A DNA stretch of 35,499 nt. It comes from a virus. The notes beneath the pieces were generated by a model. That model worked only from the letters and a program-made list of their open reading frames with translations. It was not told where the DNA came from and ran no database searches. The translations under genes were made by a program, and so were the position numbers. Of this stretch, positions 10,388 through 35,499 are shown one piece after another (within the stretch, counting starts at the first letter, position 1; each line of letters begins with the position of its first letter). The DNA is taken from positions 1-35,499 of the IMG/VR virus record IMGVR_UViG_3300008120_009499. The stretch is one strand, 5' to 3'.

Positions 10388-10729
10388 GTGTCAAATAAAA
10401 ATAAAATTATTTATTTATTTTTCATTCCTGAATTGAATATAAGTAAGATTGGAATAAGCAGAAATGCTACTAAAAGATTAAGTCAATTACAAACTGGTTG
10501 TCCTTATCAAATACAATTAATTAAAACATATAGTTCAGAATTTTCTACTAAAATTGAAAGAGTATTACATAGGTCATTCAGAACAAAAAAAGTTGATTCG
10601 TTTGAATATGCCTTGTTAGGAGAATGGTTTAATTTAGAAATAGATTCAATATTAAAATTCGAGGAAATTTGCTCTGAAATAGAGAAAAATATTATCTATT
10701 TAAAGAAAGAAAACAATCCTTTTCTATGA
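10388..10729 (+). CDS. GIY-YIG-like nuclease-domain protein (T5orf172/Mug113 type)
   Basis: The 113 residues carry the small GIY-YIG-superfamily layout of T5orf172/Mug113 domains: IIYLFFIP (Tyr9), then SKIGIS (20-24) as the YIG-like strand, Arg30 in the first helix, Glu57 in KIERVLHRSF as the likely metal-binding glutamate, and GEWFNLE (78-84). Such domains are found in phage selfish or DNA-processing genes. The start is GTG at 10388; the nearby ATG (10386) is in another frame. Its last six bases overlap tail to tail with the endonuclease gene on the other strand. The pairing suggests a mobile island placed between sheath and tube genes. Catalytic activity is inferred only. Confidence 0.7.
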   Translation: MSNKNKIIYLFFIPELNISKIGISRNATKRLSQLQTGCPYQIQLIKTYSSEFSTKIERVLHRSFRTKKVDSFEYALLGEWFNLEIDSILKFEEICSEIEKNIIYLKKENNPFL

Positions 10730-16114: not shown

Positions 16115-19100
16115 ATGCCAATAAATTTTCCAATAAATCCAACTATAGGTCAAACCTATACCTATGATTCGAAAACATGGGAATGGGAAGGTAGTTATTG
16201 GAAAGCATTGGGGATTGTTCCCGCAAATGGTTCTTCTGGAACAAGTGGTAGTGCAGGTAGTTCTGGTACAAGTGGTAGTTCGGGTAGTTCAGGAACTAGC
16301 GGTAGTTCGGGTAGTGCAGGTACATCAGGAAGTTCTGGTAGTGCAGGTACATCGGGTAGTTCAGGAAGTTCTGGTGAAAACGGAAGTTCTGGTTCATCTG
16401 GTAGTGCAGGTACATCGGGCAGTTCAGGAAGTTCTGGTGCAAACGGCAGTTCTGGCTCATCTGGTAGTGCAGGTACATCAGGTAGTGCAGGTTCTGCTGG
16501 TACAAGTGGTAGTGCAGGTACATCGGGTAGTGCAGGTACATCGGGCAGTTCAGGAAGTTCTGGTGCAAACGGCAGTTCTGGCTCATCTGGTAGTGCAGGT
16601 ACATCGGGTAGTTCAGGAAGTTCTGGTTCATCTGGTAGTGCAGGTACATCGGGTAGTTCAGGAAGTTCTGGTGTAAACGGAAGCTCTGGTTCATCGGGTA
16701 GTGCAGGAAGTGCAGGCACATCGGGTAGTTCAGGAAGTTCTGGTATAAACGGAAGTTCTGGTTCATCTGGTAGTGCAGGAAGTGCAGGCACATCGGGTAG
16801 TTCAGGAAGTTCTGGTGCAAACGGCAGTTCTGGTTCATCGGGTAGTGCAGGAAGTGCAGGCACATCGGGTTCATCTGGTAGTGCAGGTACATCGGGATCT
16901 TCTGGTAGTTCTGGAGTTAACGGAAGCTCTGGTTCAGCAGGTACATCTGGGGTAGATGGTGCTAGTGGAACTTCTGGAACAAGTGGAACTTCAGGATCAT
17001 CTGGTAGTGCAGGTACATCAGGTTCATCAGGAAGTTCTGGTGCAAATGGAAGCTCAGGCTCATCAGGAATAAATGGAAGTTCAGGTTCATCTGGGATAAA
17101 TGGAAGTTCAGGTTCTTCTGGTAGTGCAGGTATATCGGGAAGTTCTGGTTCATCTGGGATTAATGGAAGTTCTGGTTCTTCTGGTGAAAATGGAAGTTCA
17201 GGCTCTTCTGGTAGTGCAGGTACATCAGGAAGTTCTGGTTCATCTGGAATAAATGGAAGTTCTGGTTCTTCTGGTAGTGCAGGTACATCGGGAAGTTCTG
17301 GTTCATCTGGTAGTGCAGGTACATCGGGTTCATCTGGTAGTGCAGGAACTAGTGGTAGTTCTGGCAGTGCGGGTACATCTGGTTCATCTGGTAGTTCTGG
17401 TATAAATGGTAGCTCAGGTTCATCTGGTAGTGCAGGTACATCGGGTTCATCTGGTAGTGCAGGAACTAGTGGTAGTTCTGGCAGTGCAGGTACATCAGGA
17501 TCTTCTGGTAGTTCTGGTATAAATGGAAGTTCCGGTTCATCTGGAAGTTCTGGTACAAGTGGTAGTTCGGGTAGTGCAGGAACATCTGGTTCATCTGGTA
17601 GTTCTGGTACATCAGGATCATCTGGTAGTGCAGGAACTAGCGGTAGTGCAGGTTCATCAGGCACAAGTGGTAGTGCAGGTAGTTCAGGAACTAGCGGTAG
17701 TGCAGGTTCATCTGGCACAAGTGGTAGTGGAGGTAGTTCAGGTATAGATGGAAGTTCCGGTTCATCTGGAAGTTCTGGTACATCAGGATCATCTGGTAGT
17801 GCAGGAACATCTGGTTCTGCTGGTACATCCGGTTCATCAGGTAGTGCAGGTTCATCCGGCATTGATGGTGTGTCAGGCGGACAAAATTACTTTTTGAATT
17901 ATTCGGTAACTCAAAGTCCTTTAACATATAAAGAATTAGGTCGTTTTACGACAGGTGCTGGTCAGCAAACGGTCGCAATTACTTTGACATCAAATCAACA
18001 AGATGTATTGTTTGGTGAGTTCATTACTGATGTTGGAGATCCAAATGTTTTGATTATACCAAATGGTATTTGGCACAGTTATGTTTATTGGACTAAACCT
18101 ACAGACCTTTCTGATTGTGAATATTATTTCACAATAACAAAAAGAGAATCTGGTGGTACAGAAACTTTGTTATTCACATCAGATAGTGTTAAAATAGGTT
18201 GGAATGGAAATAACACAACACCTGTTGAAACAAAAGCAAATGGTGTTGTTCCTACCAATATTTTGGACTTAACGGACAGATTAATAATTAGGGTTTATGT
18301 AAATAACAATGATCCTCTCAATAGGCTTGTAACTTTTTATACTGAAGATGCTACATATTCTTATGTGGTCACAACTTTATCCACGCCATCTGGAACATCA
18401 GGCAGTGCAGGTTCATCTGGTACTTCTGGTTCATCTGGTAGTGCAGGAACAAGTGGCAGTGCAGGTTCATCTGGTACATCAGGTAGTTCAGGATCATCTG
18501 GTACAAGCGGTAGTGCAGGTAGTTCTGGTATAGACGGAAGTTCCGGTTCATCTGGAAGTTCGGGCACAAGCGGTAGTTCGGGTAGTGCAGGAACAAGTGG
18601 TAGTTCGGGTAGTTCAGGAACTAGCGGTAGTGCAGGTAGTTCTGGTATAGATGGAAGTTCCGGTTCATCTGGTAGTTCTGGTACATCAGGTAGTGCAGGA
18701 TCATCTGGTACAAGCGGTAGTTCTGGTAGTGCAGGAACATCTGGTTCATCTGGTAGTGCAGGAACTAGCGGTAGTGCAGGTTCGTCTGGTACAAGTGGTA
18801 GTGCAGGTAGTTCTGGTATAGACGGAAGTTCCGGTTCATCTGGAAGTTCGGGTACATCAGGTAGTGCAGGATCATCTGGTACAAGCGGTAGTGCGGGTAG
18901 TTCTGGTACATCAGGAAGTGTAGTTCTGGTACATCAGGAAGTTCTGGTAGTGCAGGAACATCTGGTTCATCTGGAAGTTCGGGTACAAGTGGTAGTTCGG
19001 GTAGTTCAGGAACATCTGGTTCATCTGGTAGTTCTGGTACATCTGGATCATCTGGTAGTGCAGGAACTAGCGGTAGTGCAGGTTCATCTGGTACAAGTGG

Positions 19101-19123
19101 TAGTGCAGGTAGTTCTGGTATAG
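16115..19123 (+). CDS. Giant collagen-like Gly-X-Y tail fibre, N-terminal part (frameshifted)
   Basis: Residues 1-38 form a fibre-attachment head (FPINPTIGQTYTYDSKTWEW, then WKALG). Residues 39-587 are about 183 Gly-X-Y triplets, X and Y almost all Ser, Thr or Ala with occasional IN, VN, EN or ID pairs and no proline. Residues 588-759 are a globular beta-rich domain (GQNYFLNYSV to YSYVVTTLS), and a second Gly-X-Y block follows. Bacterial and phage collagen-like repeats usually form trimeric triple-helical stalks. After residue 935 (nt 18919) four bases (CAGG of an expected GCAGGT) are missing; the last 67 residues, starting VVLVHQEVLV, are out-of-frame and stop at 19123. The natural frame continues at 18922. 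The intact product would be about 1640 residues. The lesion may be real, a repeat-linked on/off switch, or a sequence error in the repeats. Confidence 0.85.
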   Translation: MPINFPINPTIGQTYTYDSKTWEWEGSYWKALGIVPANGSSGTSGSAGSSGTSGSSGSSGTSGSSGSAGTSGSSGSAGTSGSSGSSGENGSSGSSGSAGTSGSSGSSGANGSSGSSGSAGTSGSAGSAGTSGSAGTSGSAGTSGSSGSSGANGSSGSSGSAGTSGSSGSSGSSGSAGTSGSSGSSGVNGSSGSSGSAGSAGTSGSSGSSGINGSSGSSGSAGSAGTSGSSGSSGANGSSGSSGSAGSAGTSGSSGSAGTSGSSGSSGVNGSSGSAGTSGVDGASGTSGTSGTSGSSGSAGTSGSSGSSGANGSSGSSGINGSSGSSGINGSSGSSGSAGISGSSGSSGINGSSGSSGENGSSGSSGSAGTSGSSGSSGINGSSGSSGSAGTSGSSGSSGSAGTSGSSGSAGTSGSSGSAGTSGSSGSSGINGSSGSSGSAGTSGSSGSAGTSGSSGSAGTSGSSGSSGINGSSGSSGSSGTSGSSGSAGTSGSSGSSGTSGSSGSAGTSGSAGSSGTSGSAGSSGTSGSAGSSGTSGSGGSSGIDGSSGSSGSSGTSGSSGSAGTSGSAGTSGSSGSAGSSGIDGVSGGQNYFLNYSVTQSPLTYKELGRFTTGAGQQTVAITLTSNQQDVLFGEFITDVGDPNVLIIPNGIWHSYVYWTKPTDLSDCEYYFTITKRESGGTETLLFTSDSVKIGWNGNNTTPVETKANGVVPTNILDLTDRLIIRVYVNNNDPLNRLVTFYTEDATYSYVVTTLSTPSGTSGSAGSSGTSGSSGSAGTSGSAGSSGTSGSSGSSGTSGSAGSSGIDGSSGSSGSSGTSGSSGSAGTSGSSGSSGTSGSAGSSGIDGSSGSSGSSGTSGSAGSSGTSGSSGSAGTSGSSGSAGTSGSAGSSGTSGSAGSSGIDGSSGSSGSSGTSGSAGSSGTSGSAGSSGTSGSVVLVHQEVLVVQEHLVHLEVRVQVVVRVVQEHLVHLVVLVHLDHLVVQELAVVQVHLVQVVVQVVLV
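16229..17875 (+). repeat. Coding tandem repeat: first collagen-like Gly-X-Y block
   Basis: About 183 uninterrupted 9-base Gly-X-Y codon units in the fibre gene, with higher-order repetition of 18-54 bases (GGTAGTTCTGG and GGTAGTGCAGG variants). Ser/Thr/Ala fill most X and Y positions. Such near-identical DNA is prone to slippage and mis-assembly. Confidence 0.93.
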
Positions 19124-19323: not shown

Positions 19324-21039
19324 CCTACTTTACCAACTCCTGCTGATTTTATTTGGACTTATGGAAACAGTTATAACACTTCTTTAAAAGTTTTAAGGAA
19401 TAATTATACATTAAATGTTTATAGTAACTGGAGTATCTTGGCTGGAAGAAGTAATTCGATTGCTCAGTTTGCTGATCATGCTGGAATATTAGCCGGTAGA
19501 GACAACACTATAACATCAACTACATATAGACCAAGTCAATACGCTTTAATATTCGGAGGAAATCAAAGTAAAATTAAGAGATCATCTAAAAATTCAGGTA
19601 TATTCAATGGATATAAAAACTACATAGGAAATAATGATGACATTTACTTTAATACAACCAAATACAATAATATTACAACTGGAAAGTTAAATAGAATAAA
19701 TATAAATTTTGTTCCTACTCCTCAAGATAATATTAACATTGATTATAATTTAATTTCAAACGGTATTGGTAATAAAATTTATGCTACAGCCCATACTCAA
19801 AGAAACTTTATAGTAAACGGATACCAAAACTTTTTAGGTTCTGCAAAAGCAAGTTTTATAGATAATGGTGCATACAATAAAATAGAATTAAACATAAGAG
19901 GATATAAAAACAATTCTGATTATTTCAACGTATACAATAGTGTTTATAGTAAATATCATTTTATAAACAATGGATATAGTAACTTAATTTCGGATTACCT
20001 AAGAATATATAAAGTAGATACTAATCAAAAATTCGAAATTAAAGGAAGATCAAACAGTATATTAAACGGGACTGATAACGAGATATATGGTGGATTAAGT
20101 TTTATTACAGATGAAAATGCTACAACAACTTCTTCGCAATCATATTTTAATACTGTTGAAAATGGAAAGCAAAATAAAATCGTAGCTTCAGGAAAAACAA
20201 ATTATAATTTCATACAAAATGGTTTACAAAATACAGTAAATAACACTACTAATTCTGGAATTTTAAATGGGTATAAAAATAGAATAATACAAATAATCAA
20301 TGCAGATATTGATGGAAGGGCAGCCAATAATCTATTAAATAAATATAATAGTATTGGTAATGGAAATAGTAATTTAATTTCTGGACAAAATAAAGCAAAT
20401 TCTGATTATACTTCTAAATACAACACTGTAGCTAATGGTAGATTAAATAAAATAGAAGCTACTTCATATAGAGGATATAGTGCAAATACAGAATATAATT
20501 TTATTGCAAATGGAAGAGGAAATGAAATTTATGCAGCAAAATTTTCTGGTATTTTGGGTGGATCTGGACACACTATTCGTTTTAATCATTCTGTTATACT
20601 TGGAGGTACAAATCTCACATCAACAAGAGATGAAGAAGCTAGAGTTAAGAATTTAACTATTACAAATCAAGTTCTTGGTGGAGATAGATTTTTAACTATT
20701 GACTCTGCAACAGGTTATGTTTATTATACGGGAACTACTGGAGGGGGTAGTGGTTCTGGAACTTCTGGTTCAAGTGGTAGTTCTGGAATTAATGGAAGTT
20801 CAGGATCTTCTGGTAGCTCTGGGGCAAGCGGAAGCTCAGGTTCATCAGGAAGTGCTGGAGAAAGTGGAAGCTCAGGTTCATCAGGAAGCACTGGGGCAAG
20901 TGGAAGCTCAGGTTCATCAGGAAGTACTGGAGCAAGTGGAAGTTCAGGATCTTCTGGTAGTTCTGGTGCAAATGGTTCATCAGGAAGTTCTGGTGCAAGC
21001 TTTCAACAAATGTTAATAATAACATCATTAGGAGTGTAA
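18922..21039 (+). CDS. Collagen-like tail fibre, C-terminal part with beta-roll region
   Basis: The frame is open without stops from 18922 and continues the Gly-X-Y repeats of the upstream gene, so this is the other part of the same fibre. The first start-type codon is TTG 19438, inside a folded region and without an A-rich leader, so independent initiation is unlikely. After the repeats (to 19323), about 480 residues carry a recurring N-x-I-x-x-G-x-x-N-x-I pattern (SGIFNGYKNYI, GILGGSGHTI) like the left-handed beta-rolls of YadA-type trimeric adhesin heads. A third Gly-X-Y block of about 27 triplets follows (20758-21000), and the protein ends with a short hydrophobic tail (MLIITSLGV). I infer a trimeric, receptor-binding fibre tip region. 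Confidence 0.8.
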   Translation, partial: SSGTSGSSGSAGTSGSSGSSGTSGSSGSSGTSGSSGSSGTSGSSGSAGTSGSAGSSGTSGSAGSSGIDGSSGSSGSSGTSGSSGSSGTSGSAGSAGTSGSAGSSGVNGSSGSSGVNGSSGSSGAAGTSGSSGVSPTLPTPADFIWTYGNSYNTSLKVLRNNYTLNVYSNWSILAGRSNSIAQFADHAGILAGRDNTITSTTYRPSQYALIFGGNQSKIKRSSKNSGIFNGYKNYIGNNDDIYFNTTKYNNITTGKLNRININFVPTPQDNINIDYNLISNGIGNKIYATAHTQRNFIVNGYQNFLGSAKASFIDNGAYNKIELNIRGYKNNSDYFNVYNSVYSKYHFINNGYSNLISDYLRIYKVDTNQKFEIKGRSNSILNGTDNEIYGGLSFITDENATTTSSQSYFNTVENGKQNKIVASGKTNYNFIQNGLQNTVNNTTNSGILNGYKNRIIQIINADIDGRAANNLLNKYNSIGNGNSNLISGQNKANSDYTSKYNTVANGRLNKIEATSYRGYSANTEYNFIANGRGNEIYAAKFSGILGGSGHTIRFNHSVILGGTNLTSTRDEEARVKNLTITNQVLGGDRFLTIDSATGYVYYTGTTGGGSGSGTSGSSGSSGINGSSGSSGSSGASGSSGSSGSAGESGSSGSSGSTGASGSSGSSGSTGASGSSGSSGSSGANGSSGSSGASFQQMLIITSLGV
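20758..21000 (+). repeat. Coding tandem repeat: third collagen-like Gly-X-Y block
   Basis: About 27 Gly-X-Y triplets near the end of the fibre, again Ser-rich, with GASGSSGSSGSTGASGSSG-type units. It links the beta-roll head to the last 12 or so residues. Confidence 0.9.
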
Positions 21040-22910: not shown

Positions 22911-23825
22911 ATGCTAATAGATAATACCAATGAAACAATTGAACTAGTACTTGCTGCTAGTGTTACGACAAATCAGGCAACATTTTCTTGTTCATTTAAT
23001 GAATTTTCATCTAATACGTTTTCAGGGAATGAAACTAATGGTACAAGTAATAATACCACAGCGGTGACTTTAGTAGCAAGTCCTTCATCAGGTTTTCAAA
23101 GACAAGTTAGAGAATTAATTATTGAAAATAATGATACCGCTTCGATTACAGTCACCATAAGATTTAATAATACATCGGTTACTAGAATAATTATGAAAGC
23201 TATATTAGCAGTTGGAGATAGTTTAACTTATTCAGCACATGACGGTTGGAATTGTAAAGATACAAACGGAGGAATTAGATTTTATAACATACATATCAAT
23301 CCAACTGGAAGTGTTAGAGGTCCTGAATTTTTTCCAGTTTCTGCTGCTGCTACGACTACAACTTTAGGTGCGAATGTTGCAGGTCAATATTTGGGTAAAG
23401 CTGAAAAGGCATATTCATCAATCGATTTTAGGTATAGAGTTGATACGGCTATTGCTGGTACTCAAACATTTTCTGAACTGGCTGTTTATAGGATTTCAAA
23501 TAGAATGAGCATAGGAACACAACAAGTATGGACAAGATTGGGTTTTACAAACTGTGCTGCTGTATGGAATTCCACCGGTTTAAAAACAACTAATGTTGCT
23601 CTTACAGGTTGTAGAACAGGTGATGATTTATATGTAATTTGGGCAAGTAATAATACTACATCTATGGCACCAAGAAGTGGCAACTATGCTGATCCAATAA
23701 GTTCAATATTACAAGTTACAACAACAACCGTAGCAAGCTGGAGACCAAGCACATCACCTCTATATCAAGCTACAAGTTTTACTGCAGCTGCATCAGCTGT
23801 ATGGGTCTTGTGGCAAGGAAATTAA
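22911..23825 (+). CDS. Fibre-associated structural protein, paralogue 3 of 3 (304 aa)
   Basis: Most divergent of the three paralogues: MLIDNTNETIELVL at the start, TTAVTLVASPSS, then YLGKAEKAYSSIDFRY, SELAVYRI, GFTNCA and SWRPSTSPLY, ending in AVWVLWQGN. It closes the plus-strand operon. Its stop codon overlaps the stop region of the opposing glycosyltransferase gene (four shared bases), so no terminator fits between them. A fibre or adhesin role is inferred from position and resemblance to the other two copies. Confidence 0.7.
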   Translation: MLIDNTNETIELVLAASVTTNQATFSCSFNEFSSNTFSGNETNGTSNNTTAVTLVASPSSGFQRQVRELIIENNDTASITVTIRFNNTSVTRIIMKAILAVGDSLTYSAHDGWNCKDTNGGIRFYNIHINPTGSVRGPEFFPVSAAATTTTLGANVAGQYLGKAEKAYSSIDFRYRVDTAIAGTQTFSELAVYRISNRMSIGTQQVWTRLGFTNCAAVWNSTGLKTTNVALTGCRTGDDLYVIWASNNTTSMAPRSGNYADPISSILQVTTTTVASWRPSTSPLYQATSFTAAASAVWVLWQGN

Positions 23826-26185
23826 AATATAATTTTATTAATTTTATCTATTACCATATTTGAAGTAATTGATTTGGTACATTCAAATTGTCTTGAAGTT
23901 CCTTTATGTCTTGGGCACCAATTCCAGTCAGCAGGATCTAATCTAAAATCATTGAAACATCCATTGCAAGTTTTAGTCTGATCTTCTACAAACACTCGTT
24001 CACAATCTGTCATTTCGCAAATAGGTCTAGAAAAACCACTTATTAATACAGTTGGTTTATTCAATGACCAAGATAACCATGATAAACCACTGCCCAATCC
24101 AATAAAACCTTCTGAGTGATAAATATAATTACATATTTCTTGAATAGTCTTACCATCTATTTTAATTACACCTTTAGGGTTTTTATTTCCCATATAATTA
24201 TCAGGTTCTTTTGATAAAAGAAAAACTTCATAATCATTAGATTTCAAATAGTCAACAACTTCTTGCCAGCCGTTTGGATTATTCCAATATTTAGATTGAG
24301 CTGTGGAATGATTAGCAATACAAAAATATTTTTTATTAGTTGGTCTTTCAGATGGAGTAAAATCTATTTTTGGTTTTATTTCTTTGAATTCTAATCCCAA
24401 AATATCACAAGCTGTTTTTTGTAGATGTTGATCTCTGAAATTAAAAGGATTTTTTGATGATACTATTTCGTTTTTATCATCATAAAACCAACCTATAGTA
24501 AACATTTTATATAGATTATGAACTACTGATCCCGGTTGAACAAATTCTATTTCTGGATAATTTTTTTCAAAAAAACTATTATGGAAAGTTGAACATATTA
24601 CTTTACAATTATTTTTTATTCTAAACTCTTCAACTTGTGGAAACCAAGCGATTGTGTCTCCCAGTGATGAGGAATCTAAGTGTATATATATACGTTGATT
24701 TTCAAATGATGGTTTAATGATATGAGTTTTACCTTCAAGTTTATATTGTATATAAAAATCTCTATGATATTCTCTGTTCAACTGAGCGAACATATTATTT
24801 CTTAAAGTGGTTTCGTATAAAAGATCATTTGTTTCATTGTCAAAAAATCTGAATTTCACTTCAAATTTTTCTTCGCATTTTAAATCTATTCTTGGTTCTT
24901 TAAAATATGAAAATAAAACTTCTGTTTTTGTTTTTTTATTTTCTTTAATTGAAATTGGTGTTTTTTCATAAACATCAATTAGTGTATCTTTAAGATTCAT
25001 GTTTTCTTTTTTTTCATTATTTGATCCTTTATCAAGTTCAATAAAAGAAGCTCTAAAGTTTTGGTAATTAAAATAAATTGGAATTTTGTTTTGTATTTTT
25101 TGTTTAATCAATTCTAAATTATTTATGCCACTTCTATTGTTATTGTGTAGGTGAGTGTTATCAGAAAAATAATTTATTTTACAATTTATATTAGAAGCAA
25201 TTTCATATATAGTTTCGGCATCATCAAATGAATTTATTCTTAAAAAAGCATAATCCAAATCAATATATTCATCAAAATAAAGATCATGATCAAAAAAAAG
25301 AATTTTTAGTTTTTCATTTTGTTTTTCATTGTAATTGAAATTAAAGAAACCTATTTTTTTTCTTGAATTTTCCCAGTTTAATGGACTTATATATGTTGAT
25401 TCGGCAGCTTCGTATATATCATCAAAGAATGTGTTTTTTCTCGGATATTCAATATTTGAATTTTTTCTTCTTTCTTTTGCTTCTTTTATGAGAACAACCT
25501 CACCTCTTATATTCCAATTTCTAAAATTTTCAGAATCATAATGTTGTCTAGCCAAATAAACTGTTCTAGGAATAGTCAACCATTTTCCTTTTTCTTCGAG
25601 ATTAATTAACCATTGAGCATCATTAGAAGTACATATTTCATTATCTTCATGTACTTTAAAATTAAGTTCTGGTAAATTTCTAAATATTCTTAAGTAGCCA
25701 AAAATTCCACTTCTTTCTGGTGTCAATCTTTCAAATGCTTCTAAAAATGAATTATTATCTCTTGATATATAAACATTGTCAACAAATCTTTCTAAAAAAT
25801 TTTCTTTAGAGGAAGGTAATGAATCTTGATATTTATTAGCATTAAAATGTAGAAAAATAACTTCTGGAAATTTTTCAAAATAAAAAACAATCTTTTCAAA
25901 TGTATTTGGTAAAATTTTATCATCACCATCAATTGGACATACTATGTCTCCGGTAGCATGTAGTTGTGGATTCCACCAAATTTCTTTTTTATAATTTGGT
26001 TTTTTTAATTTTATTCTGTTATCTAGTCTTGAAAGTTCTTCGAGAATTTTACCTGTATTGTCTGAAGAAAAATCGTCAGCTATAATCCATTCCCAATTAT
26101 TATATCTTTGAGACAGAATTGAACTTGCTAATTCTTGGATATATTTTTCAGAATTATAAAAGGAAGTTATTATAGATAATTTCAT
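23822..26185 (-). CDS. GT2 glycosyltransferase fused to autotransporter-type O-heptosyltransferase-like domain
   Basis: Residues 1-~240 are a GT-A/GT2 domain (SIITSFYNSEKYI, ADDFSSD, DxD-like Asp86-Gly-Asp88). A linker region follows (to ~425). Residues ~430-787 match the bacterial autotransporter heptosyltransferase (Aah/TibC) family: a small beta domain (FEVKFRFFDNETNDLLYET), then IHLDSSSLGDTIAWFPQVEE (501-520), NHSTAQSKYWNNPNGWQEVV, the sugar-nucleotide loop GLGSGLSWLSWSLNKP (696-711) and an iron-finger-like Cys cluster (Cys740, Cys743, Cys757, Cys769). That family transfers heptose from ADP-heptose to Ser in repeat adhesins. It is the last gene of the minus-strand glycan operon and abuts the Ser-rich fibre operon. 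A second sugar could be added by the GT2 half. Sugar and acceptor are inferred. Confidence 0.85.
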   Translation of the reverse strand: MKLSIITSFYNSEKYIQELASSILSQRYNNWEWIIADDFSSDNTGKILEELSRLDNRIKLKKPNYKKEIWWNPQLHATGDIVCPIDGDDKILPNTFEKIVFYFEKFPEVIFLHFNANKYQDSLPSSKENFLERFVDNVYISRDNNSFLEAFERLTPERSGIFGYLRIFRNLPELNFKVHEDNEICTSNDAQWLINLEEKGKWLTIPRTVYLARQHYDSENFRNWNIRGEVVLIKEAKERRKNSNIEYPRKNTFFDDIYEAAESTYISPLNWENSRKKIGFFNFNYNEKQNEKLKILFFDHDLYFDEYIDLDYAFLRINSFDDAETIYEIASNINCKINYFSDNTHLHNNNRSGINNLELIKQKIQNKIPIYFNYQNFRASFIELDKGSNNEKKENMNLKDTLIDVYEKTPISIKENKKTKTEVLFSYFKEPRIDLKCEEKFEVKFRFFDNETNDLLYETTLRNNMFAQLNREYHRDFYIQYKLEGKTHIIKPSFENQRIYIHLDSSSLGDTIAWFPQVEEFRIKNNCKVICSTFHNSFFEKNYPEIEFVQPGSVVHNLYKMFTIGWFYDDKNEIVSSKNPFNFRDQHLQKTACDILGLEFKEIKPKIDFTPSERPTNKKYFCIANHSTAQSKYWNNPNGWQEVVDYLKSNDYEVFLLSKEPDNYMGNKNPKGVIKIDGKTIQEICNYIYHSEGFIGLGSGLSWLSWSLNKPTVLISGFSRPICEMTDCERVFVEDQTKTCNGCFNDFRLDPADWNWCPRHKGTSRQFECTKSITSNMVIDKINKIIF

Positions 26186-26211: not shown

Positions 26212-27693
26212 TTAAAAATTCTTGAGTTTTTTATTTTTAATCTTAATTGCAAAGTTATCCATTTTTAAATTAAAAGGGATTTTATTCACAAAAAACTGAG
26301 TTAATCTATATTGTCCAAAATTTATTCTTAATTCATATAATTCATTTTCTTTAAGAGGTGAACTTGGAACCATATAAAAAGAGTTATTTTTTATTCTACA
26401 CCCAGAAATTACAACTCCATTTTTATTATGTACAGTTGCCATTATAAATAAATTTTTTTCACATAAAAATTCAAATCTTATATAATTTTCTTCCACGTTA
26501 ATTAAAAATGTAGAATTTACAAATTCTTCACTCTCTAAATATTCATTTTTGACAAATGAAATTTTAACTGCATTATCTGCTAACCAAGTTTTACCAAAAG
26601 AATGGTCACAATTTAACCAAGTTTTTTCAATATCTGGTCTAGATTTATAATCTATTAATTTTTTCTCTGTTTCACAATCTTTTGATAAAGTCCAATCTGT
26701 TTCGGTATAACTATTGTAATTTTGATTTTCACCAACCCTTAACCATTTTTCTTCGAATTGAGTGTGAGATAATCCTCTAAAAATTCCCCATGAGCTGACA
26801 CGAGGTAAACATATTGATTCATTACCCCTTTCGAAAAAAGAAATATTATTCATTTTTAATCTAAAAAACCAATCTAAATCTTCACACTCACCTCCAATAA
26901 ATCTTTCATCCATCAAGCCAATTTTTCTAAACAATTGTTTTGAACAACCAAAAAGTCCAAAATTAACCTCTGAAACAAATGCATAACCAGAACACAAGAG
27001 AACTAAAAGATTTTCTATAATTTCAAACGTTGTATTTACTCTTGGATGAATCCAAAAAATAAATTCACTATCATGCATACAAAATACAGACTCATTTATA
27101 ATTTGAGAAAAAGAATTGTATGTGCCTGACCAAATTTCATTTCTAAACCATGTTTCATAAACAAAATTATTTTTTACACAATCTTTTAGAATTATTTTTT
27201 CATTTTCATAATTATTTTTACCTAAAAAAGCTAAACCTATTTTCGATGGTTTTAATTGACGAGCTTTAAGGAATTTGAAGTATTTATCAGTTACATCGTT
27301 CAAAAATGATATTTTTTGAGTTCCATTAAATATTAATATTAAATTTTTTTGATCTGTAATATTTATTTTAAAAGATGTTATATCAATTAAATCTTTTAAT
27401 TTATTCTCAATTAAAAAATATTCTTCATTGTTTTCTGTAATAATAGCTATTGATCCCCAAAGGTTAATTTTATTTATCAAACTATGTATGTCATTATTTT
27501 CATTATCTGATAAATCTTTAAATTTTATTATTATCAAATCAAATTTATGATTCAAAGAATTATAATAAATTTCACTTGATTGATTGCTGTAATCCTTTTT
27601 ATTTTCTAAAATTGAATTTTTGTCTAAAATTTTTGAATAATTTAATAAATTACAAGTTGTAATAAGTAATTCTTTGATAAATATATAATTCAT
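26212..27693 (-). CDS. Glycosyltransferase-like protein, GT-A C-terminal motif (493 aa)
   Basis: The middle (~145-300) has the C-terminal GT-A signature of GT2/GT7-like enzymes: SEVNFGLFGCSKQLFRKIG, then MDERFIGGECEDLDWFFRL (261-279), where the E-D-x-D supplies the catalytic-base region. The first ~120 residues include FDLIIIKFKDL and WGSIAIITEN and resemble a decayed methyltransferase-type Rossmann half. The last ~90 residues are a beta-sandwich-like domain (IRFEFLCEKNLFIMATVHNK). It starts with no gap after the RmlD-like gene's stop (TAA then ATG) and lies 26 bases before the fused transferase, in one operon. The donor sugar is unknown. Confidence 0.7.
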   Translation of the reverse strand: MNYIFIKELLITTCNLLNYSKILDKNSILENKKDYSNQSSEIYYNSLNHKFDLIIIKFKDLSDNENNDIHSLINKINLWGSIAIITENNEEYFLIENKLKDLIDITSFKINITDQKNLILIFNGTQKISFLNDVTDKYFKFLKARQLKPSKIGLAFLGKNNYENEKIILKDCVKNNFVYETWFRNEIWSGTYNSFSQIINESVFCMHDSEFIFWIHPRVNTTFEIIENLLVLLCSGYAFVSEVNFGLFGCSKQLFRKIGLMDERFIGGECEDLDWFFRLKMNNISFFERGNESICLPRVSSWGIFRGLSHTQFEEKWLRVGENQNYNSYTETDWTLSKDCETEKKLIDYKSRPDIEKTWLNCDHSFGKTWLADNAVKISFVKNEYLESEEFVNSTFLINVEENYIRFEFLCEKNLFIMATVHNKNGVVISGCRIKNNSFYMVPSSPLKENELYELRINFGQYRLTQFFVNKIPFNLKMDNFAIKIKNKKLKNF

Positions 27694-28485
27694 TTATAAA
27701 TATTTTTTTTTAAAGTATATCATAGATAAAATTTGCATATCTAGACTTGGTAAATTAATATCACTTTCTAGACATTTGTTTATGTTTTTTTTATTAAGAA
27801 CGGGATTTATTTTTTTATTTAAATGTAGAAAATTATTAAATTTTGATAGTAATTGATATTTGCTTAATTTTTCTGAGCCTACTTGAATTACATTTTCAAA
27901 ATTTTCAGGATTTTCTATAATAAATTCACAAATTTCAGCCCACTGCAATGTAGTTATTCCATTCCAAAAAACATTAGTAAATCCATCAATTATTTGTCTT
28001 TCATTATTAACAAACCAATTCCAAAGAGAAAAATTAGAATTTTTTTCTGGTCCAACGATAGAAGTTCTTATTTGCTTTACATTTTTATAGTTTTTCTCTA
28101 AGAACAATGATCCATATGCTTTGGATGAACCATAATTATCTTCAGCATTTCTTATTGTTTTTTTTGAATAAAATCCATTTTCTTCAATATTACCATTAAA
28201 CTCACAATCTGTGCTAGGATGAATGATCAATCCATTAAAATTATCAGCCAACCATATTGGAAGCATGATGTTAATCGTTAAGTAATCATTAAGTTTTGGA
28301 TTTTTTTGAGGAATAATTCCTATGCAATTAATTAATACATCAGCTTCAGAATTTTTAATTTTCAGTTTAAAATTTTCATCAGGCCATTTCAAATCTAATG
28401 TATCAACTTTGAAACCTTTGATTTTAAAATAACTTAAAACAACATGGCCTAACATACCATTGTGGCCCAATATTAAAATTTTCAT
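27694..28485 (-). CDS. RmlD-like sugar-nucleotide reductase (extended SDR)
   Basis: The N-terminal NAD(P)-binding motif is LGHNGMLGH (Gly7, Gly10, Gly13). LINCIGIIPQ and HPSTDCEFNG are typical of the RmlD substrate-binding family, and the catalytic pair is Tyr118-Gly-Ser-Ser-Lys122. RmlD reduces dTDP-4-keto-L-rhamnose, while relatives (WbjC/CapF/FnlB type) reduce other 4-keto sugars. At 263 residues it is near the usual RmlD length (~290). The neighbouring CapE/PseB-like dehydratase (29048) makes 4-keto sugars, so this enzyme may reduce its product, for example toward an N-acetyl-fucosamine-type sugar. Gap to the upstream gene is three bases. The exact substrate cannot be read from sequence. 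Confidence 0.8.
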   Translation of the reverse strand: MKILILGHNGMLGHVVLSYFKIKGFKVDTLDLKWPDENFKLKIKNSEADVLINCIGIIPQKNPKLNDYLTINIMLPIWLADNFNGLIIHPSTDCEFNGNIEENGFYSKKTIRNAEDNYGSSKAYGSLFLEKNYKNVKQIRTSIVGPEKNSNFSLWNWFVNNERQIIDGFTNVFWNGITTLQWAEICEFIIENPENFENVIQVGSEKLSKYQLLSKFNNFLHLNKKINPVLNKKNINKCLESDINLPSLDMQILSMIYFKKKYL

Positions 28486-28488
28486 TAT

Positions 28489-29040
28489 TTAGTAAATTAA
28501 TTGTTTAAATCTACTGATTTTTTTTACCATGGTAACGCCCGGATTAAATGGTAGTGTTAGAATTTCAAAATCGTCAATTAAATTTTTTTTAATAAATAAA
28601 GGGGTTTTATATGCATCATTACAAAAACCCGGATCAAACATGTAAGGGTCATAAGGGTATGTATCATGAAAGAATATGAATCCATCTTCTATAATGTGTT
28701 TTGAGGCATTCATAAAATCTTTTAAAGATTGTTCATGTGAATGATCAGCATCAATAAAAATCATATCAAACTTAATGTTGGGATCTAGTTCTTCAAAAAA
28801 TTTGTCTGTTGTCATTTGAAAATATTTCATATTACCTTTTAAGTTAAATGGACATGATGATGTGTCTACTCCCCAAGACTCTTGACAAAATTCAGAAATT
28901 GGATTAAAATTTCTTCCATCTCTCACACCAAGCTCTAAATATCTTTCAGGTTTTAAGTATGAACATATAAATGAAAAATAAGATACATGATCAAATGTTT
29001 CAAGTGGTGGTGGTACGTTTCTTAAGTGTATTGGTTTCAT
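28489..29040 (-). CDS. Class I SAM-dependent methyltransferase (Methyltransf_24-like)
   Basis: The 183 residues hold the Rossmann methyltransferase motifs: RYLELGVRDGRN (33-44) is the SAM-binding motif I, and FDMIFIDADHSHEQSLKDF (91-109) has the D-x-D-H-x-H pattern typical of the Methyltransf_24/CmcI-like sugar and small-molecule methyltransferases, followed by GGx-like FIFFHDTYP. It lies seven bases before the dehydratase gene and three after the RmlD-like gene in operon order. A role in methylating a glycan or sugar intermediate is inferred from context; a protein substrate cannot be excluded. Confidence 0.8.
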   Translation of the reverse strand: MKPIHLRNVPPPLETFDHVSYFSFICSYLKPERYLELGVRDGRNFNPISEFCQESWGVDTSSCPFNLKGNMKYFQMTTDKFFEELDPNIKFDMIFIDADHSHEQSLKDFMNASKHIIEDGFIFFHDTYPYDPYMFDPGFCNDAYKTPLFIKKNLIDDFEILTLPFNPGVTMVKKISRFKQLIY

Positions 29041-29047
29041 ATTTTTT

Positions 29048-29974
29048 TTAAATATTGTTGAAGTAATTTTTGTTCAATAAAAATGTATTTAATTCTTCTT
29101 TACTTAGACAGTGATCTTTACTTGAATATTCTTTGAAATTTAATTCATTGAAAACCTTATGATAATGCATTAACAAATAATTATCAATTTCTTTTGTTCT
29201 AGAAACTTCTTCTTCTGCAATCATGATTTCGTGTATTTTTTCAGATATTCTTGGTTCACCTATTTTATATCTCAAACCAAATTTTTTTTGATAAATTTCG
29301 AAAAGATCTTTAATATAAAAACTTTTTATTTTAGGTATTATATTGTAGCTTTTTTGTGTCAAAGAAAATTCAACTAACTCTATAGCTTCATCAATAGTCA
29401 AAATAAATCTTGTCATATTTTCAGAATATAGAGTCAGTTCGTAGTCTTTTTTTATAGCATCCCAAATTAGAGGGATAATACTTCCAGTAGAATTAGCAAC
29501 ATTTCCATAAATTGCACAACTCAATCTTGTTTCTGAGCATTCAGAGTTCACTATAAAACTTTCTCCAGCTACAAATTTCATAGCTCCATATAAAGTCGTA
29601 GCTCCTCTACTCTTATCAGAAGAAATAAAACAAGCTGATTCCATCTTATTTTCCTCTGCTACCCTTCTTGAGTTTAATGCCCCTTCTATAATTATTTTTA
29701 CTGCTTCCTCCACGTTTTGATCAACACTTTCTATTTGTTTTAGAGAAGCTGCAAAAATTCCAATATCATGTTTTGTTGAAGCTCTCTTTAATAAATCATA
29801 GTTTCTAATATCTCCAATTACAGTTTTAATTTTTGGATATTCTTTTTTTAAAAAATAATGCTTTGATTCATCTCTACTATAAACTGTAATTTCGTTATTA
29901 TTATAATATTTTTTTATAAGATTTTTACCTAAAAAACCTGCACCTCCGGTTATAAATATTTTTTTATCTTTCAT
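29048..29974 (-). CDS. UDP-GlcNAc 4,6-dehydratase-like enzyme (CapE/PseB/FnlA type)
   Basis: An extended SDR with ITGGAGFLGKNL (8-19), the family-specific AASLKQIESVDQNVEEAVKI (75-94) that replaces the AALKHVP element of PseB/CapE proteins, SSDKSRGATTLYGAMKFVAG with Tyr129 and Lys133 of the YxxxK pair, and SCAIYGNVANSTGSIIPLI. Such enzymes convert UDP-GlcNAc to 4-keto-6-deoxy intermediates for aminosugars. The Thr of the usual STDK motif is Ser here. At 308 residues it is a little shorter than typical relatives (~330-345). It is five bases after the large multi-domain gene and supplies substrate candidates for the RmlD-like reductase. Confidence 0.82.
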   Translation of the reverse strand: MKDKKIFITGGAGFLGKNLIKKYYNNNEITVYSRDESKHYFLKKEYPKIKTVIGDIRNYDLLKRASTKHDIGIFAASLKQIESVDQNVEEAVKIIIEGALNSRRVAEENKMESACFISSDKSRGATTLYGAMKFVAGESFIVNSECSETRLSCAIYGNVANSTGSIIPLIWDAIKKDYELTLYSENMTRFILTIDEAIELVEFSLTQKSYNIIPKIKSFYIKDLFEIYQKKFGLRYKIGEPRISEKIHEIMIAEEEVSRTKEIDNYLLMHYHKVFNELNFKEYSSKDHCLSKEELNTFLLNKNYFNNI

Positions 29975-29979
29975 AATTT

Positions 29980-32900
29980 TTAAATTAAATCAAATTCATG
30001 GTCTAGGTTTTTTGAATATTGTAAATATCTTTCATATTCCTCCATAAACGGATTTAGATTTCCCCCCTGTGAAGCTCCGGGTTGATAGTACCATCTTTCG
30101 TTCAAATGATATATTTTTGGATCTAGATATTTGTTCGCAATTCTCACTGTTCCATCTATTTCATTTTTCCATGGATTTTCATTCTCTTCTAAAGAAGAAA
30201 TTAGAAATTCTCTATTCCAGATACATGCATTGTGAGTCAAAAGCCATTCACTATTATTTTTTGCTTTTAATACTCTTTTACCTTCAACAAAATGACTTGT
30301 TTTAATAAATTCATATGAACCCCAAAGCTTTTCATGTATTCTTAGACAGTTCCAATCGTTTAACCTAACCTTGTGAAGAGATTTCTTGAAAGTATTATAA
30401 TCAGCTTTTACTGTAAGCCACATATCTTCCTGCATATATAATACATATTTTGTATTCAATTTACTCAAAATATCGAGTAGTCTATTTGAAAATTGAGATG
30501 AGTCAATTGATTTAGGAGATTTAATGTTATTAACCCTGAAATCATTGAATGGTAAATCTTTTTCTTCTGTACAAAAATATACCGGCCAATTCAAACTCCA
30601 ATCCCAATATCTGGAAAAAGATAAATACCAACCATTCCAAAATCTTTCATAATTATCACATGATTGAATAATTACAGTTATATCATCATCAATATTTTCT
30701 TTTCTATATATTGGGGTATTTGGATCGATATCAGTTCCCTCTTTAAATCTCATATCTATTGATGATATTCCGGGCTGTTGAAGAAAATAAGGTATTCTAT
30801 AAATTCCTCTTTTTCTGTTCCAGAAAAATATATTACACCATAGATCATATGCATCCCAATTTGTATTTAATAGTTTATCTGCATATTCATTTATGTGAGA
30901 TTTAGTTATTAAATAACAATGTGCTTCTGATTGTTTGAACGTGAAGAACAAATCATTAACTATATTTTCGTGCTCAACTCCCGGAATTTGTTTACCAAAA
31001 GATGTTGAGATTAAATCATGTTTATTGTTTAAAAAATAGGTATCTATAATTTTTTCATAAACTTCTTTATATTCACCAAAAACTATACAATCACATTCAC
31101 AAATCAATATAGCATCATAATTTTTTATATAATCATCACAAATTGATTTTTTGTGTGAATTATAACATCCATAGTGAGATGGTGTCAACAAATAATCTCC
31201 GGGATTTAAAGATATTGCGTGTGGTCTTTGACAATTTTCATAAGGGGGTAAATCATAATATTTTGGTGTTATTAATTGTTCATAATCTAATCCGTAAGAT
31301 GATAGGTTGCGAAGAGATTCTATAGATTTAATTTCTCTTGGACCTTCGGGATTATTTAATATATGAATTATTTTGATTTTTGGTTTTTTGATACAATAAA
31401 AATTAGATAAATTTTTATCATCTGTATAATTGTCTTGATAATTGAAGCCACAATCTTTTAAAGTTTTTACTATAAAATTATACCCTTCAATTCCTATTGA
31501 ATTAATATGAATCTCTCCTGTTATTTTCTTTATTTTATGTTTTAAAAAATCTTTGTCAATAGTTTCAAAAAATTCTAATTCTGCCCCTTCGCAATCAATC
31601 TTTAAATAATCGATATAATTGATATTGTTTTCAGAAATAAAATCATTTACATTTTTTATTGTGACTTTTTCTTTTTTTCTATTTAAACCCCAATAATGTT
31701 CTATGTTTTCTGTTAATTCTTTCTTACCTGATATTGATGAAACCTCGCCTGTTAAAAATTCTACTTCTTCATTTTTAGCACCTATTCCGAAATTGAAAAC
31801 TTGTATGTTGGATAAATCTTTTGTATTAAATTTTAAATATTCATATGTCTCTTTTATGGGTTCTATTGAATAAACCTTTTTAGCACCCATCGAAGCAGCA
31901 TATAATGTAAAAAGTCCTATATTAGAACCAATATCAACAACTATATCATTATTCTCTATGTTTTTATAATCTTCTCTTATGAAAATTTCATAAAAACTCC
32001 AAAATGAAGAATGATCTATTGGATTACATTTAAGTTCTATTTTTTTATTTTGTATTATTATTTCTGTTGTTGGAAATACATTTGGTTTCCATGTAGTTTT
32101 TTTTAAATCTAAAAAAGATTCACTTTGTATTATGTTTAAATCGTTGTCAAAAAATTCTACACAAATTCCATTTCTATGATTTTGTTGAGCATTTGGAATC
32201 ATCCACATTCCATCTCCCTTATTGAAAGATAAGTCTGAATATAGACTTTGAAAAACTAAATTGGTTAAGGGGTCTCTCATTCTTATATTGTATGTTTTGA
32301 GAGAAGGGTGATTGCTTATTATTGAATAATGTATTTTACCTTCATTTTCATCATAAGACACATCAAAAAATTTTTGTTTAGTTCTAAGTTTTAATTTATC
32401 TTTAATTAATTCAATATTGTTCTCTGAATTAGATAAATAATTTATATTATCAAATTTATCAAAATAATTTTGATATACATCTAAATTATAAAGTAGAATT
32501 GGAATTTTCCAACCGATAGCTTCTCTTAAAACTAAAGGCATTGTCTCTTTATCACCATTATTGCCCCTAGATGTAAAAAGAAATAAATCCATGCAACTGT
32601 AAAAAGTATCTGTATCATTTCTTTCACCCCATATTCTGCAATTTGCAGGTTTGTTAATTAATAAAGGTTCCCAATAGAATTTAAAATTATCAGCCTGATT
32701 TCCTAAAAAATGAAATTCTACAGTATTGTCAAAATATTTAGCTAATTCAAATATTTCAGCTTGATTTTTTCTTGGTGTAAAAAGTCCAACATTTAATATA
32801 TGTTTTTTTTTGGGATCTAATCCTAGTTTTATTAATGTTTCCTCTCTATTGGGTCTTTCTTTGTATTCTATTGGATATTCTGCCAAATATTTAGGAACAT

Positions 32901-33345
32901 CAATATTTTTATATTGTTCAATTTGCCAATTGCTTACAAAAAGAAATGCATCTGGAAAATATTTTTTGTTTTCATCCGGATTGTAAGATGAATCATGACT
33001 AGTTTCAAAAATTTTATATGATCTATTTTTATTATAAATAAAATCAGCAATTTCTTTTGGTAAAAAATATTCCGGAATTTCTTCAATATGAATGAAATCT
33101 GGTTTGATATTATCAATTAAATCTTTAATTTCATATAATTTGTTTTGTCCTAAAGAGAAAAAATGATTTTCATCTAAAATTTTTGTTATTCTGTTTCTTT
33201 GAATTACTAAAACTCCACCAGTAATATTTTCATATTCAATACAGAAAACCTCTAATTTATCCTTAAGAAGTTCTATTTTTTTGAATAAGTATTGTGGTAG
33301 ACCCCCTGTTGAAAGGTGTGGAGCAATAAATATTATTTTTTTCAT
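29980..33345 (-). CDS. Four-domain glycosyltransferase/FkbM methyltransferase polyprotein (1121 aa)
   Basis: Domains in order: 1-~305, a GT-B/GT4 transferase (IIFIAPHLSTGGLPQYL, NVGLFTPRKNQ, and the E-x7-E pair Glu267/Glu275 in KETMPLVLREAIGWKIP); ~325-420, a beta-rich linker domain; ~440-655, an FkbM-type methyltransferase (VVDIGSNIGLFTLYA at 469-483, YLKIDCEGAELEF at 580-592); ~655-880, a GT25-like transferase (THYG-type start, NYDAILICECDCIVFGE at 742-758); and ~888-1121, a further GT-A-like domain (WNGWYLSFSRYWDW, YVLYMQEDMW). The second glycosyltransferase call (GT25-like) is the weakest. One polypeptide with three transferase-type domains and a methyltransferase fits stepwise assembly of a capped glycan. 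It heads the glycan operon; the leader is AT-rich, 41 bases after a structural gene. Confidence 0.82.
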   Translation of the reverse strand: MKKIIFIAPHLSTGGLPQYLFKKIELLKDKLEVFCIEYENITGGVLVIQRNRITKILDENHFFSLGQNKLYEIKDLIDNIKPDFIHIEEIPEYFLPKEIADFIYNKNRSYKIFETSHDSSYNPDENKKYFPDAFLFVSNWQIEQYKNIDVPKYLAEYPIEYKERPNREETLIKLGLDPKKKHILNVGLFTPRKNQAEIFELAKYFDNTVEFHFLGNQADNFKFYWEPLLINKPANCRIWGERNDTDTFYSCMDLFLFTSRGNNGDKETMPLVLREAIGWKIPILLYNLDVYQNYFDKFDNINYLSNSENNIELIKDKLKLRTKQKFFDVSYDENEGKIHYSIISNHPSLKTYNIRMRDPLTNLVFQSLYSDLSFNKGDGMWMIPNAQQNHRNGICVEFFDNDLNIIQSESFLDLKKTTWKPNVFPTTEIIIQNKKIELKCNPIDHSSFWSFYEIFIREDYKNIENNDIVVDIGSNIGLFTLYAASMGAKKVYSIEPIKETYEYLKFNTKDLSNIQVFNFGIGAKNEEVEFLTGEVSSISGKKELTENIEHYWGLNRKKEKVTIKNVNDFISENNINYIDYLKIDCEGAELEFFETIDKDFLKHKIKKITGEIHINSIGIEGYNFIVKTLKDCGFNYQDNYTDDKNLSNFYCIKKPKIKIIHILNNPEGPREIKSIESLRNLSSYGLDYEQLITPKYYDLPPYENCQRPHAISLNPGDYLLTPSHYGCYNSHKKSICDDYIKNYDAILICECDCIVFGEYKEVYEKIIDTYFLNNKHDLISTSFGKQIPGVEHENIVNDLFFTFKQSEAHCYLITKSHINEYADKLLNTNWDAYDLWCNIFFWNRKRGIYRIPYFLQQPGISSIDMRFKEGTDIDPNTPIYRKENIDDDITVIIQSCDNYERFWNGWYLSFSRYWDWSLNWPVYFCTEEKDLPFNDFRVNNIKSPKSIDSSQFSNRLLDILSKLNTKYVLYMQEDMWLTVKADYNTFKKSLHKVRLNDWNCLRIHEKLWGSYEFIKTSHFVEGKRVLKAKNNSEWLLTHNACIWNREFLISSLEENENPWKNEIDGTVRIANKYLDPKIYHLNERWYYQPGASQGGNLNPFMEEYERYLQYSKNLDHEFDLI

Positions 33346-34307: not shown

Positions 34308-35499
34308 TTATAGAGATAACATTTCTTGATATACATTATTGATTTTCGGTTGAAAATAAGCTAAAACTTCTTGCCAATTGTTAAATGTGCTATTTCTTAT
34401 CTCTTCTAAGTTATCATTTGATTGTTGAATATCTAAAATTTTACCATTTTTGATTAAATCTATTGACATTTCATAACCTCGGATAACAGACCATAAAGCT
34501 TTTTGGTACCTTTCAAATTCTCTATTTTCAAAAGATTTTTGGGCTAAATTCAAATGAAAATCTCCTCTTTCTTTTTGTTTTGTTTTTATTTTTTGTTTAT
34601 CTAAAACATAATTAAATTTAATTCTTTCTAGGGCTTTAAAATCATATGATTGCGTGTTATAAACTTGCCAAACCCTATCTGTAGGAACGTAGTCTTCTAC
34701 AAATGCACTTCCAGTTACATCGTTTAATTGTTTTTCAAATTCATCTGGGTTGTAAATATAATACTCAACATTGTCCTCTTTTATAATGGTGAGAGGTTCA
34801 GCATTTTGGGCAACAATTATAATATCTATATCTGAAGTATCATTTACAGTACCAAAATAATACGAACCATAAACATAAATGTTATATATACCACTCATGG
34901 GAACACCAATTTTTTTTGCGATATTAAATAAATTTATAGAAGAGAGTTTTAAAATACTCTGTAATTTTGAATTTACTGAATCCTCTAAATTGGGATCAAA
35001 AATGTCTCTACTTAAAATATTTGGGTTTGGTGTTAAATAATTTATATCAATATAATCTTGTCTGTATCTCTCTAAAAAACTGTCACTAAAATTCTCGAAA
35101 ACAAATCCATTATACATTAATTTACACTTGTTTGTGTTTGTAACATCGATTTGTTCATAATAATTATATGTGCTTAAGTCATAAAATTCCTCTAAATAAA
35201 TTATTAAATATTGACAAATTTGATTGGGATTGTTGAAAGGTCTTAAAGATAAAACTATTGGAGATCTAACTCCCCAATTCTTGTAAATGTTTATATTTAT
35301 GGTTTTAACAGTATCTCCTATATCAAATTGCAGTTCATATGTTGGATCTAAAACATCGTTGTTTGGATTGGCTAAGTTAAAAGCACTAATTCCGTCATCA
35401 GGACCCAGAAGGCTTGGTGAGAAGTATTCGTAGTTTAATATAACTTTATCTCTTTTATTTGGGAAATTATGTTTTATTGAAATTGAAAGTTGATTAGTA
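34308..35499 (-). CDS. Nucleotidyltransferase-domain protein with N-terminal extension (5' end outside the window)
   Basis: The minus-strand frame is open from the window edge to the stop at 34308. The first Met (35117) sits mid-frame, with at least 127 coding-looking codons before it (ending TNTNKCKLMYNGF), so the gene almost certainly starts beyond the window. The N-terminal visible part (FDIGDTVKTININIYKNWG, then SPIVLSLRPFNNPNQ) is beta-rich and structural in style. Counted from that Met, residues ~78-100 hold the pol-beta-type nucleotidyltransferase motif YVYGSYYFGTVNDTSDIDII (Gly84-Ser85, Asp96, Asp98), followed by a helical region (KERGDFHLNLAQKSFENREF) like MNT/HEPN-type or kanamycin-nucleotidyltransferase proteins. 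The fusion is unusual, and the substrate is unknown. Confidence 0.7.
   Translation of the reverse strand, partial: TNQLSISIKHNFPNKRDKVILNYEYFSPSLLGPDDGISAFNLANPNNDVLDPTYELQFDIGDTVKTININIYKNWGVRSPIVLSLRPFNNPNQICQYLIIYLEEFYDLSTYNYYEQIDVTNTNKCKLMYNGFVFENFSDSFLERYRQDYIDINYLTPNPNILSRDIFDPNLEDSVNSKLQSILKLSSINLFNIAKKIGVPMSGIYNIYVYGSYYFGTVNDTSDIDIIIVAQNAEPLTIIKEDNVEYYIYNPDEFEKQLNDVTGSAFVEDYVPTDRVWQVYNTQSYDFKALERIKFNYVLDKQKIKTKQKERGDFHLNLAQKSFENREFERYQKALWSVIRGYEMSIDLIKNGKILDIQQSNDNLEEIRNSTFNNWQEVLAYFQPKINNVYQEMLSL

Follow-up and report, generated by a model that had tools for sequence, protein, structure and literature searches.

What does a virus glycosylate with a protein that carries a GT2 transferase at one end and a TibC-like domain at the other? 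The gene lies in a window of 35,499 nucleotides, the whole stretch of DNA analysed here (IMG/VR record IMGVR_UViG_3300008120_009499). The source is a freshwater bacterial virus, and our analysis suggests that enzymes of this kind coat the serine-rich tail fibres of the viruses that encode them. A first-pass annotation had described the gene as a GT2 domain with a DGDD motif, joined in one polypeptide by a linker of ~190 residues to an autotransporter-heptosyltransferase-like domain. It had contrasted this with stand-alone Aah/TibC proteins and had proposed that one enzyme combines an initiating with an extending transferase. The open reading frame and its parts are laid out as follows.

23822-26185, minus strand: GT2-TibC fusion protein, 787 aa, ATG start, one uninterrupted frame.
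25832-26176, minus strand: GT2 (GT-A) domain core, residues 4-118; PF00535, 73.1 bits (gathering cut-off 23.3).
25919-25930, minus strand: DGDD (DXD-type) motif, residues 86-89; D86, D88 and D89 invariant in a small GT2 alignment (A3).
25619-25621, minus strand: Asp189, which lines up with ED/DD in other phage GT2s and is a candidate for the catalytic base in this half.
24935-25390, minus strand: middle region, residues 266-417, without a family match and faster-evolving.
23831-24934, minus strand: TibC/Aah-family domain, residues 418-785; TIGR04414, 286.9 bits (curated cut-off 200).

Profile searches matched both families above their cut-offs, so a GT2 domain with DGDD and a genuine TibC-family domain do share a single polypeptide. 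The proposed linker length is also about right: the Pfam core stops at residue 118, a typical GT2 domain would extend to ~215-265, and ~150-170 residues after that expected end match no family. The same fusion is found in three other contigs. Two of them, from other samples, carry a 100% identical open reading frame (L001 and L002), and a diverged virus, L003, has the same continuous frame at 77% amino acid identity. Comparison with L003 gave a dN/dS of 0.12 in both the GT2 and the TibC part and of 0.25 in the middle (NG86; dS about 1.1). Purifying selection thus acts on both halves, with similar constraint. A frame break in the neighbouring fibre repeat of the same record could be taken to favour an assembly or frame-shift artefact. 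Because the frame is continuous in the identical and the 77%-identical contigs, and selection is purifying throughout, we rule this explanation out and give it practically no chance.

Does the C-terminal half belong to the TibC family, or could it be a generic GT9 domain? The crystallized TibC sequence (4RAP) matched at E=8e-54 over 350 residues. Generic GT9 profiles scored far lower on the same protein, with 31.6 bits for PF01075 and 27.7 bits for the WaaC profile TIGR02193 (cut-off 185.3). The predicted structure of residues 418-787 has pLDDT values mostly of 83-97, with weaker stretches of 63-76 in the C-lobe. The model superimposes on 4RAP with a TM-score of 0.84 (target-normalised), whereas WaaC and further GT9 structures reach 0.48-0.59, and it has the TibC fold, including the N-terminal beta-barrel. 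The first-pass annotation had raised a closer match to GT9 families lacking the Cys cluster as the finding that would count against it. The opposite was found: 286.9 bits for TIGR04414 against ~30 for generic GT9, four cysteines in place, and a modelled fold nearer to TibC. A generic GT9 or WaaC origin is therefore ruled out, and the C-terminal half belongs to the TibC/Aah family of sequences.

The functional residues of TibC are known from the published structure (D110, T226, K230, R286, W305, the thumb tip, and Cys 339/342/358/370; PMC4358343). We located their counterparts in an alignment with 30 viral and 18 bacterial rows.

24656-24658, minus strand: Asp510, the LGD aspartate, equivalent of the TibC catalytic base Asp110.
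24278-24298, minus strand: QSKYWNN motif, in which Lys632 corresponds to TibC Lys230.
24185-24196, minus strand: YMGN, counterpart of the tip of the TibC beta-hairpin thumb (Phe265-Val266).
24128-24145, minus strand: IQEICN, with Ile in place of Arg286, which contacts adenine in TibC.
23876-23968, minus strand: iron-finger Cys cluster, C740, C743, C757 and C769.

The window protein keeps equivalents of Asp110, Thr226, Lys230 and Trp305. On the viral side the counterparts of D110, K230 and W305 are invariant in 30 of 30 rows, and that of T226 is T or S. The Cys cluster expected in this half was recovered, and its four cysteines (TibC 339, 342, 358 and 370) are invariant in all 30 viral rows, and likewise in the 28 viral rows of alignment A1; iron binding is predicted here. 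Two positions depart from TibC. The FV of the thumb tip becomes mostly YM or FM in the viral proteins (Tyr-Met in the window), still largely hydrophobic, and in 28 of 30 viral rows Arg286 gives way to Val, Ile, Leu, Ala or Thr, whereas 17 of 18 bacterial rows have Arg there.

A scan of viral contigs with the C-terminal half returned 126 relatives, of which 80 were kept and grouped into 29 clusters. The TibC domain sits inside a longer protein in 22 of these clusters and stands alone in the other 7. Many of the fusions carry a GT4 module in front; L056 and L078 have GT4 ahead and FkbM behind, L034 has GT2 and GT4 ahead, L070 has a methyltransferase together with a region without a Pfam match (as L047 does, judging by its similar N-terminus), and L059 and L074 have the unmatched region alone. 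GT2 alone ahead of TibC was found only in the window's own virus group, where it recurs in L001, L002 and L003. Bacterial TibC-family proteins recovered by scanning genomes seem to stand alone, with open frames of 335-554 aa. The first-pass view of TibC proteins as stand-alone thus agrees with the bacterial relatives, among which no obviously fused family member was found, and fails among viruses, where fusion is frequent. In the tree, bacterial proteins (including TibC) and viral proteins lie on opposite sides of a 100/100 branch, and the window's group joins L034 (97/94). One contig binned as Polaromonas (L091) may be of phage or prophage origin: its TibC gene is of the virus type, adjoins a GTS/GSS run and falls among the viral proteins in the tree. 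We also observed that the unmatched region of ~330 residues ahead of the TibC domain (L059:2969-5086, L074:2918-5005) has similar counterparts in L020, L047 and L070, and is possibly an undescribed GT-A-like family.

The GT2 half is harder to read. Two attempts at modelling it gave low confidence, and a scan for its relatives returned only the same virus group and weak GT2 matches. Sequence does not reveal whether this half is active, the models of it are poor, and the partner modules differ among phages, all of which would suit a degenerate or targeting domain beside a TibC half that alone is active. We regard this as doubtful: neither the DGDD motif nor the candidate base has been lost, and dN/dS equals the low value of the TibC half. 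A silent GT2 half is in any case compatible with our main explanation for the C-terminal half.

If the TibC half modifies protein, what is its acceptor? The family label inherited from TibC points to autotransporters, which carry the strand-loop-strand acceptor repeat TIGR04415. This repeat was found in 0 of 10 window structural ORFs scanned and in 0 of 45 TibC-bearing viral records, so the scanned sequences show no autotransporter-type acceptor, and the 'autotransporter' part of the first-pass label is left without its partner. Since the Arg286 expected of the family is likewise replaced, the name 'autotransporter heptosyltransferase' is not apt. The window does encode a long repeat protein of another kind, ~3 kb from the fusion gene, whose repeat is Ser/Thr-saturated and of the (GSS/GTS)n type.

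16115-19123, plus strand: collagen-like tail fibre, the proposed acceptor, with ~241 GXY triplets, nearly all GSS/GTS/GSA.
19438-21039, plus strand: fibre ORF with 27 further GXY triplets by count, mostly GSS; the fibre above probably continues here beyond a break in frame.

The GXY repeat changes frame at 18920-18930: it stops at 18922 and continues at 18928 in another frame, resumes as Ser-rich repeat to 19323, and appears again at 20758-21000. The fibre gene is therefore broken in this record or misassembled. On the opposite strand, a 555-aa ORF runs over the repeat (16195-17862, minus strand) and most likely arises from the repeat itself and is no gene. Elsewhere in the window, a homing endonuclease gene (phrog_3339; 10724-12451, minus strand) lies on the opposite strand inside the tail gene cluster, and the window end cuts an ORF at 34308-35498 (minus strand) whose C-terminal half contains a nucleotidyltransferase domain (PF01909).

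The proximity of fibre and enzyme recurs in other viruses. Collagen-like tail-fibre proteins make up 10 of 114 neighbours of viral TibC genes and are among the most frequently matched families. The fetched flank (~4 kb) includes a GXY run at 12 of 29 viral loci and at 0 of 18 bacterial loci, and those 12 runs have, without exception, 67-99% Ser/Thr at X and Y. TibC itself is specific for serine, not threonine, and hyperglycosylates repeat proteins (PMC4358343). We also ran the test in reverse, independently of TibC: a DNA pattern for GSS-GTS-GSS, with a GPX pattern as control, served to gather viral contigs, which were classed by triplet composition into Ser-type contigs of at least 38 kb (n=50) and other GXY contigs of at least 30 kb (n=47). 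TIGR04414 exceeded its cut-off in 23 of 50 Ser-type contigs versus 1 of 47 others (Fisher p = 1.7e-7), in sets that are unmatched in phylogeny, length and composition. The sole positive control contig (G092, locus L142) has GSS repeats too, and among contigs gathered with an unrelated AT-rich pattern 0 of 23 were positive. TIGR04414 is missing from about half of the Ser-type contigs, though most contigs are fragments. Sixteen of the 23 TibC genes lie at most 10 kb from a Ser-type run (combined p 5e-4 versus random placement).

General richness in glycosyltransferases was weighed as a source of this association, since GT4 over cut-off is also enriched (25/50 Ser-type versus 9/47 other GXY contigs). 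Among GT4-positive contigs, TibC is present in 23 of 25 Ser-type contigs versus 1 of 9 others, a comparison with some circularity in it, as many of the GT4 domains counted sit in TibC fusions. The association between TibC and Ser-type fibres is strong, yet it is no proof of an enzyme-substrate relation. The Ser-rich collagen-like fibre is the probable acceptor of the viral TibC enzymes.

The genes next to the fusion raise a different possibility. They form a run on the same strand.

26212-27693, minus strand: 493-aa ORF without a family match, seemingly GT-A-like by eye.
27694-28485, minus strand: RmlD-like sugar reductase (PF04321, 39.8 bits).
28489-29040, minus strand: methyltransferase (PF13578).
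29048-29974, minus strand: PseB/FnlA-like sugar dehydratase (PF02719, 154 bits; TIGR03589, 174 bits, below cut-off).
29980-33345, minus strand: 1121-aa protein with profile matches to GT4 and an FkbM methyltransferase.

PseB-like, RmlD-like and GT4/FkbM genes side by side recall polysaccharide clusters, and glycosyltransferase clusters near tail fibres of pelagimyophages and jumbo phages have been proposed to modify the host surface (PMC7029224, PMC7824862). The enzyme and its neighbours could accordingly remodel the LPS O-chain or the capsule on the host surface, as a block to superinfection for instance, with the tail genes close by simply as the host-recognition region. We think this unlikely here, since the TibC fold and active site are of the protein-serine transferase type, and viral TibC genes follow the Ser content of fibres, not the mere presence of a GXY fibre.

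The donor sugar can be approached through the stand-alone viral members. In L012 (1794-6229), and also in L005 and L007, an operon encodes a 720-aa multi-domain glycosyltransferase, a stand-alone TibC-like protein, an HldE-like adenylyltransferase and an HldE-like kinase, the latter two both below equivalog cut-offs. Such an operon would be a phage-borne supply of an ADP-heptose-type donor. (At L012:11-988, the start of a tail-fibre-like ORF resembles by eye the C-terminal end of an intein, ...SDDIISHN.) These stand-alone members carry Val at the Arg286 site, which weakens the argument that loss of Arg286 means a non-ADP donor. Because Val-type members adjoin HldE-like genes, an ADP-heptose-like donor is still favoured for the family and is our most likely guess. 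An HldE-like adenylyltransferase was not found in contigs of the window's virus group, and so this virus would rely on host supply or on another sugar. Alternatively, the C-terminal half may glycosylate another phage protein, for example of the tail or capsid, or use a donor unrelated to heptose. The loss of Arg286 would fit this, and 17 of 29 loci are without a GXY run in the flank, although many such records have collagen-like matches elsewhere. Set against the strong co-occurrence with Ser-type fibres and the HldE-like genes beside stand-alone members, this alternative seems to us improbable.

The reading towards which we lean, with the balance slightly in its favour, is that of a two-headed phage glycosyltransferase whose TibC half acts on the phage's own Ser-rich fibre and whose GT2 half then extends the product. 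It builds on the domain matches, the fold of the C-terminal half, the conserved active site and iron finger, the recurrence of the fusion, selection on both halves, the split between viruses and bacteria, and the statistical link to the fibres. The TibC half would start O-glycosylation on serines of the (GSS/GTS/GSA)n collagen-like fibre, probably with an ADP-activated heptose or a relative of heptose. The processive action proposed for TibC would be well matched to a repeat protein of such length, and the enzyme may work as a ring assembly. The GT2 half, probably second in order, would add the next sugar to that glycan, and the PseB-like, RmlD-like and methyltransferase genes alongside may serve to make this sugar. 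In other phages the extra module is GT4, a methyltransferase or unknown domains, and such swaps could diversify the glycan. More tentatively, and somewhat short of an even chance in our view, large aquatic phages in general may hyperglycosylate Ser-saturated fibres through a virus-side TibC branch with exchangeable glycan modules, in parallel with the hyperglycosylation of bacterial adhesins.

Phage glycosyltransferases beside tail fibres are usually taken as host-surface modifiers. If fibre glycosylation by TibC-type enzymes holds true, many such clusters would decorate the virion instead, with consequences for adsorption, recognition and the stability of the particle. Enzyme and acceptor could then be paired from sequence and the pair tried out in laboratory E. 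coli, and the exchanged modules would form a natural series of swaps around a domain that glycosylates protein. In the open-access literature on TibC or O-heptosyltransferases with phage, and on collagen-like fibres with glycosylation, we found no description of a phage TibC-type enzyme and no account of a link to Ser-rich fibres.

How, then, does the protein compare with known systems? TibC and AAH (BAHT, TIGR04414; PDB 4RAP, 4RB4) are alike in fold, in the beta-barrel, in the Asp, Thr, Lys and Trp residues and in the four-Cys iron finger. The phage protein differs from them in its GT2 domain in front, in Ile for Arg286 and YM for the thumb-tip FV, in its place in a viral branch apart from the bacterial one, and in the absence of autotransporter acceptor repeats on the phage side. 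With the GT2 family PF00535 it has the GT2 core and a DXD-type motif in common, and similarity to the nearest solved structure, GalT1 (5HEA), reaches only 1e-9. Closest in plan are the other viral TibC fusions (L020, L034, L056, L070 and WWT39291.1 of Microcystis phage Mel-JY01), which have the same C-terminal domain and a similar multi-domain layout, some of them adjoining Ser-rich GXY fibres; their front modules are GT4, methyltransferase or unknown domains, whereas that of the window is GT2 alone. Mel-JY01 is a cultured phage, and its TibC domain shows 46% identity to the one in the window. A precedent for sugars on the phage particle comes from mycobacteriophages (Freeman et al. 2023, as cited in PMC12619734). 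As far as that citing account goes, particle proteins bear the sugars there, on the C-termini of capsid and tail-tube proteins, whereas here we propose the same fate for Ser-rich collagen-like fibres.
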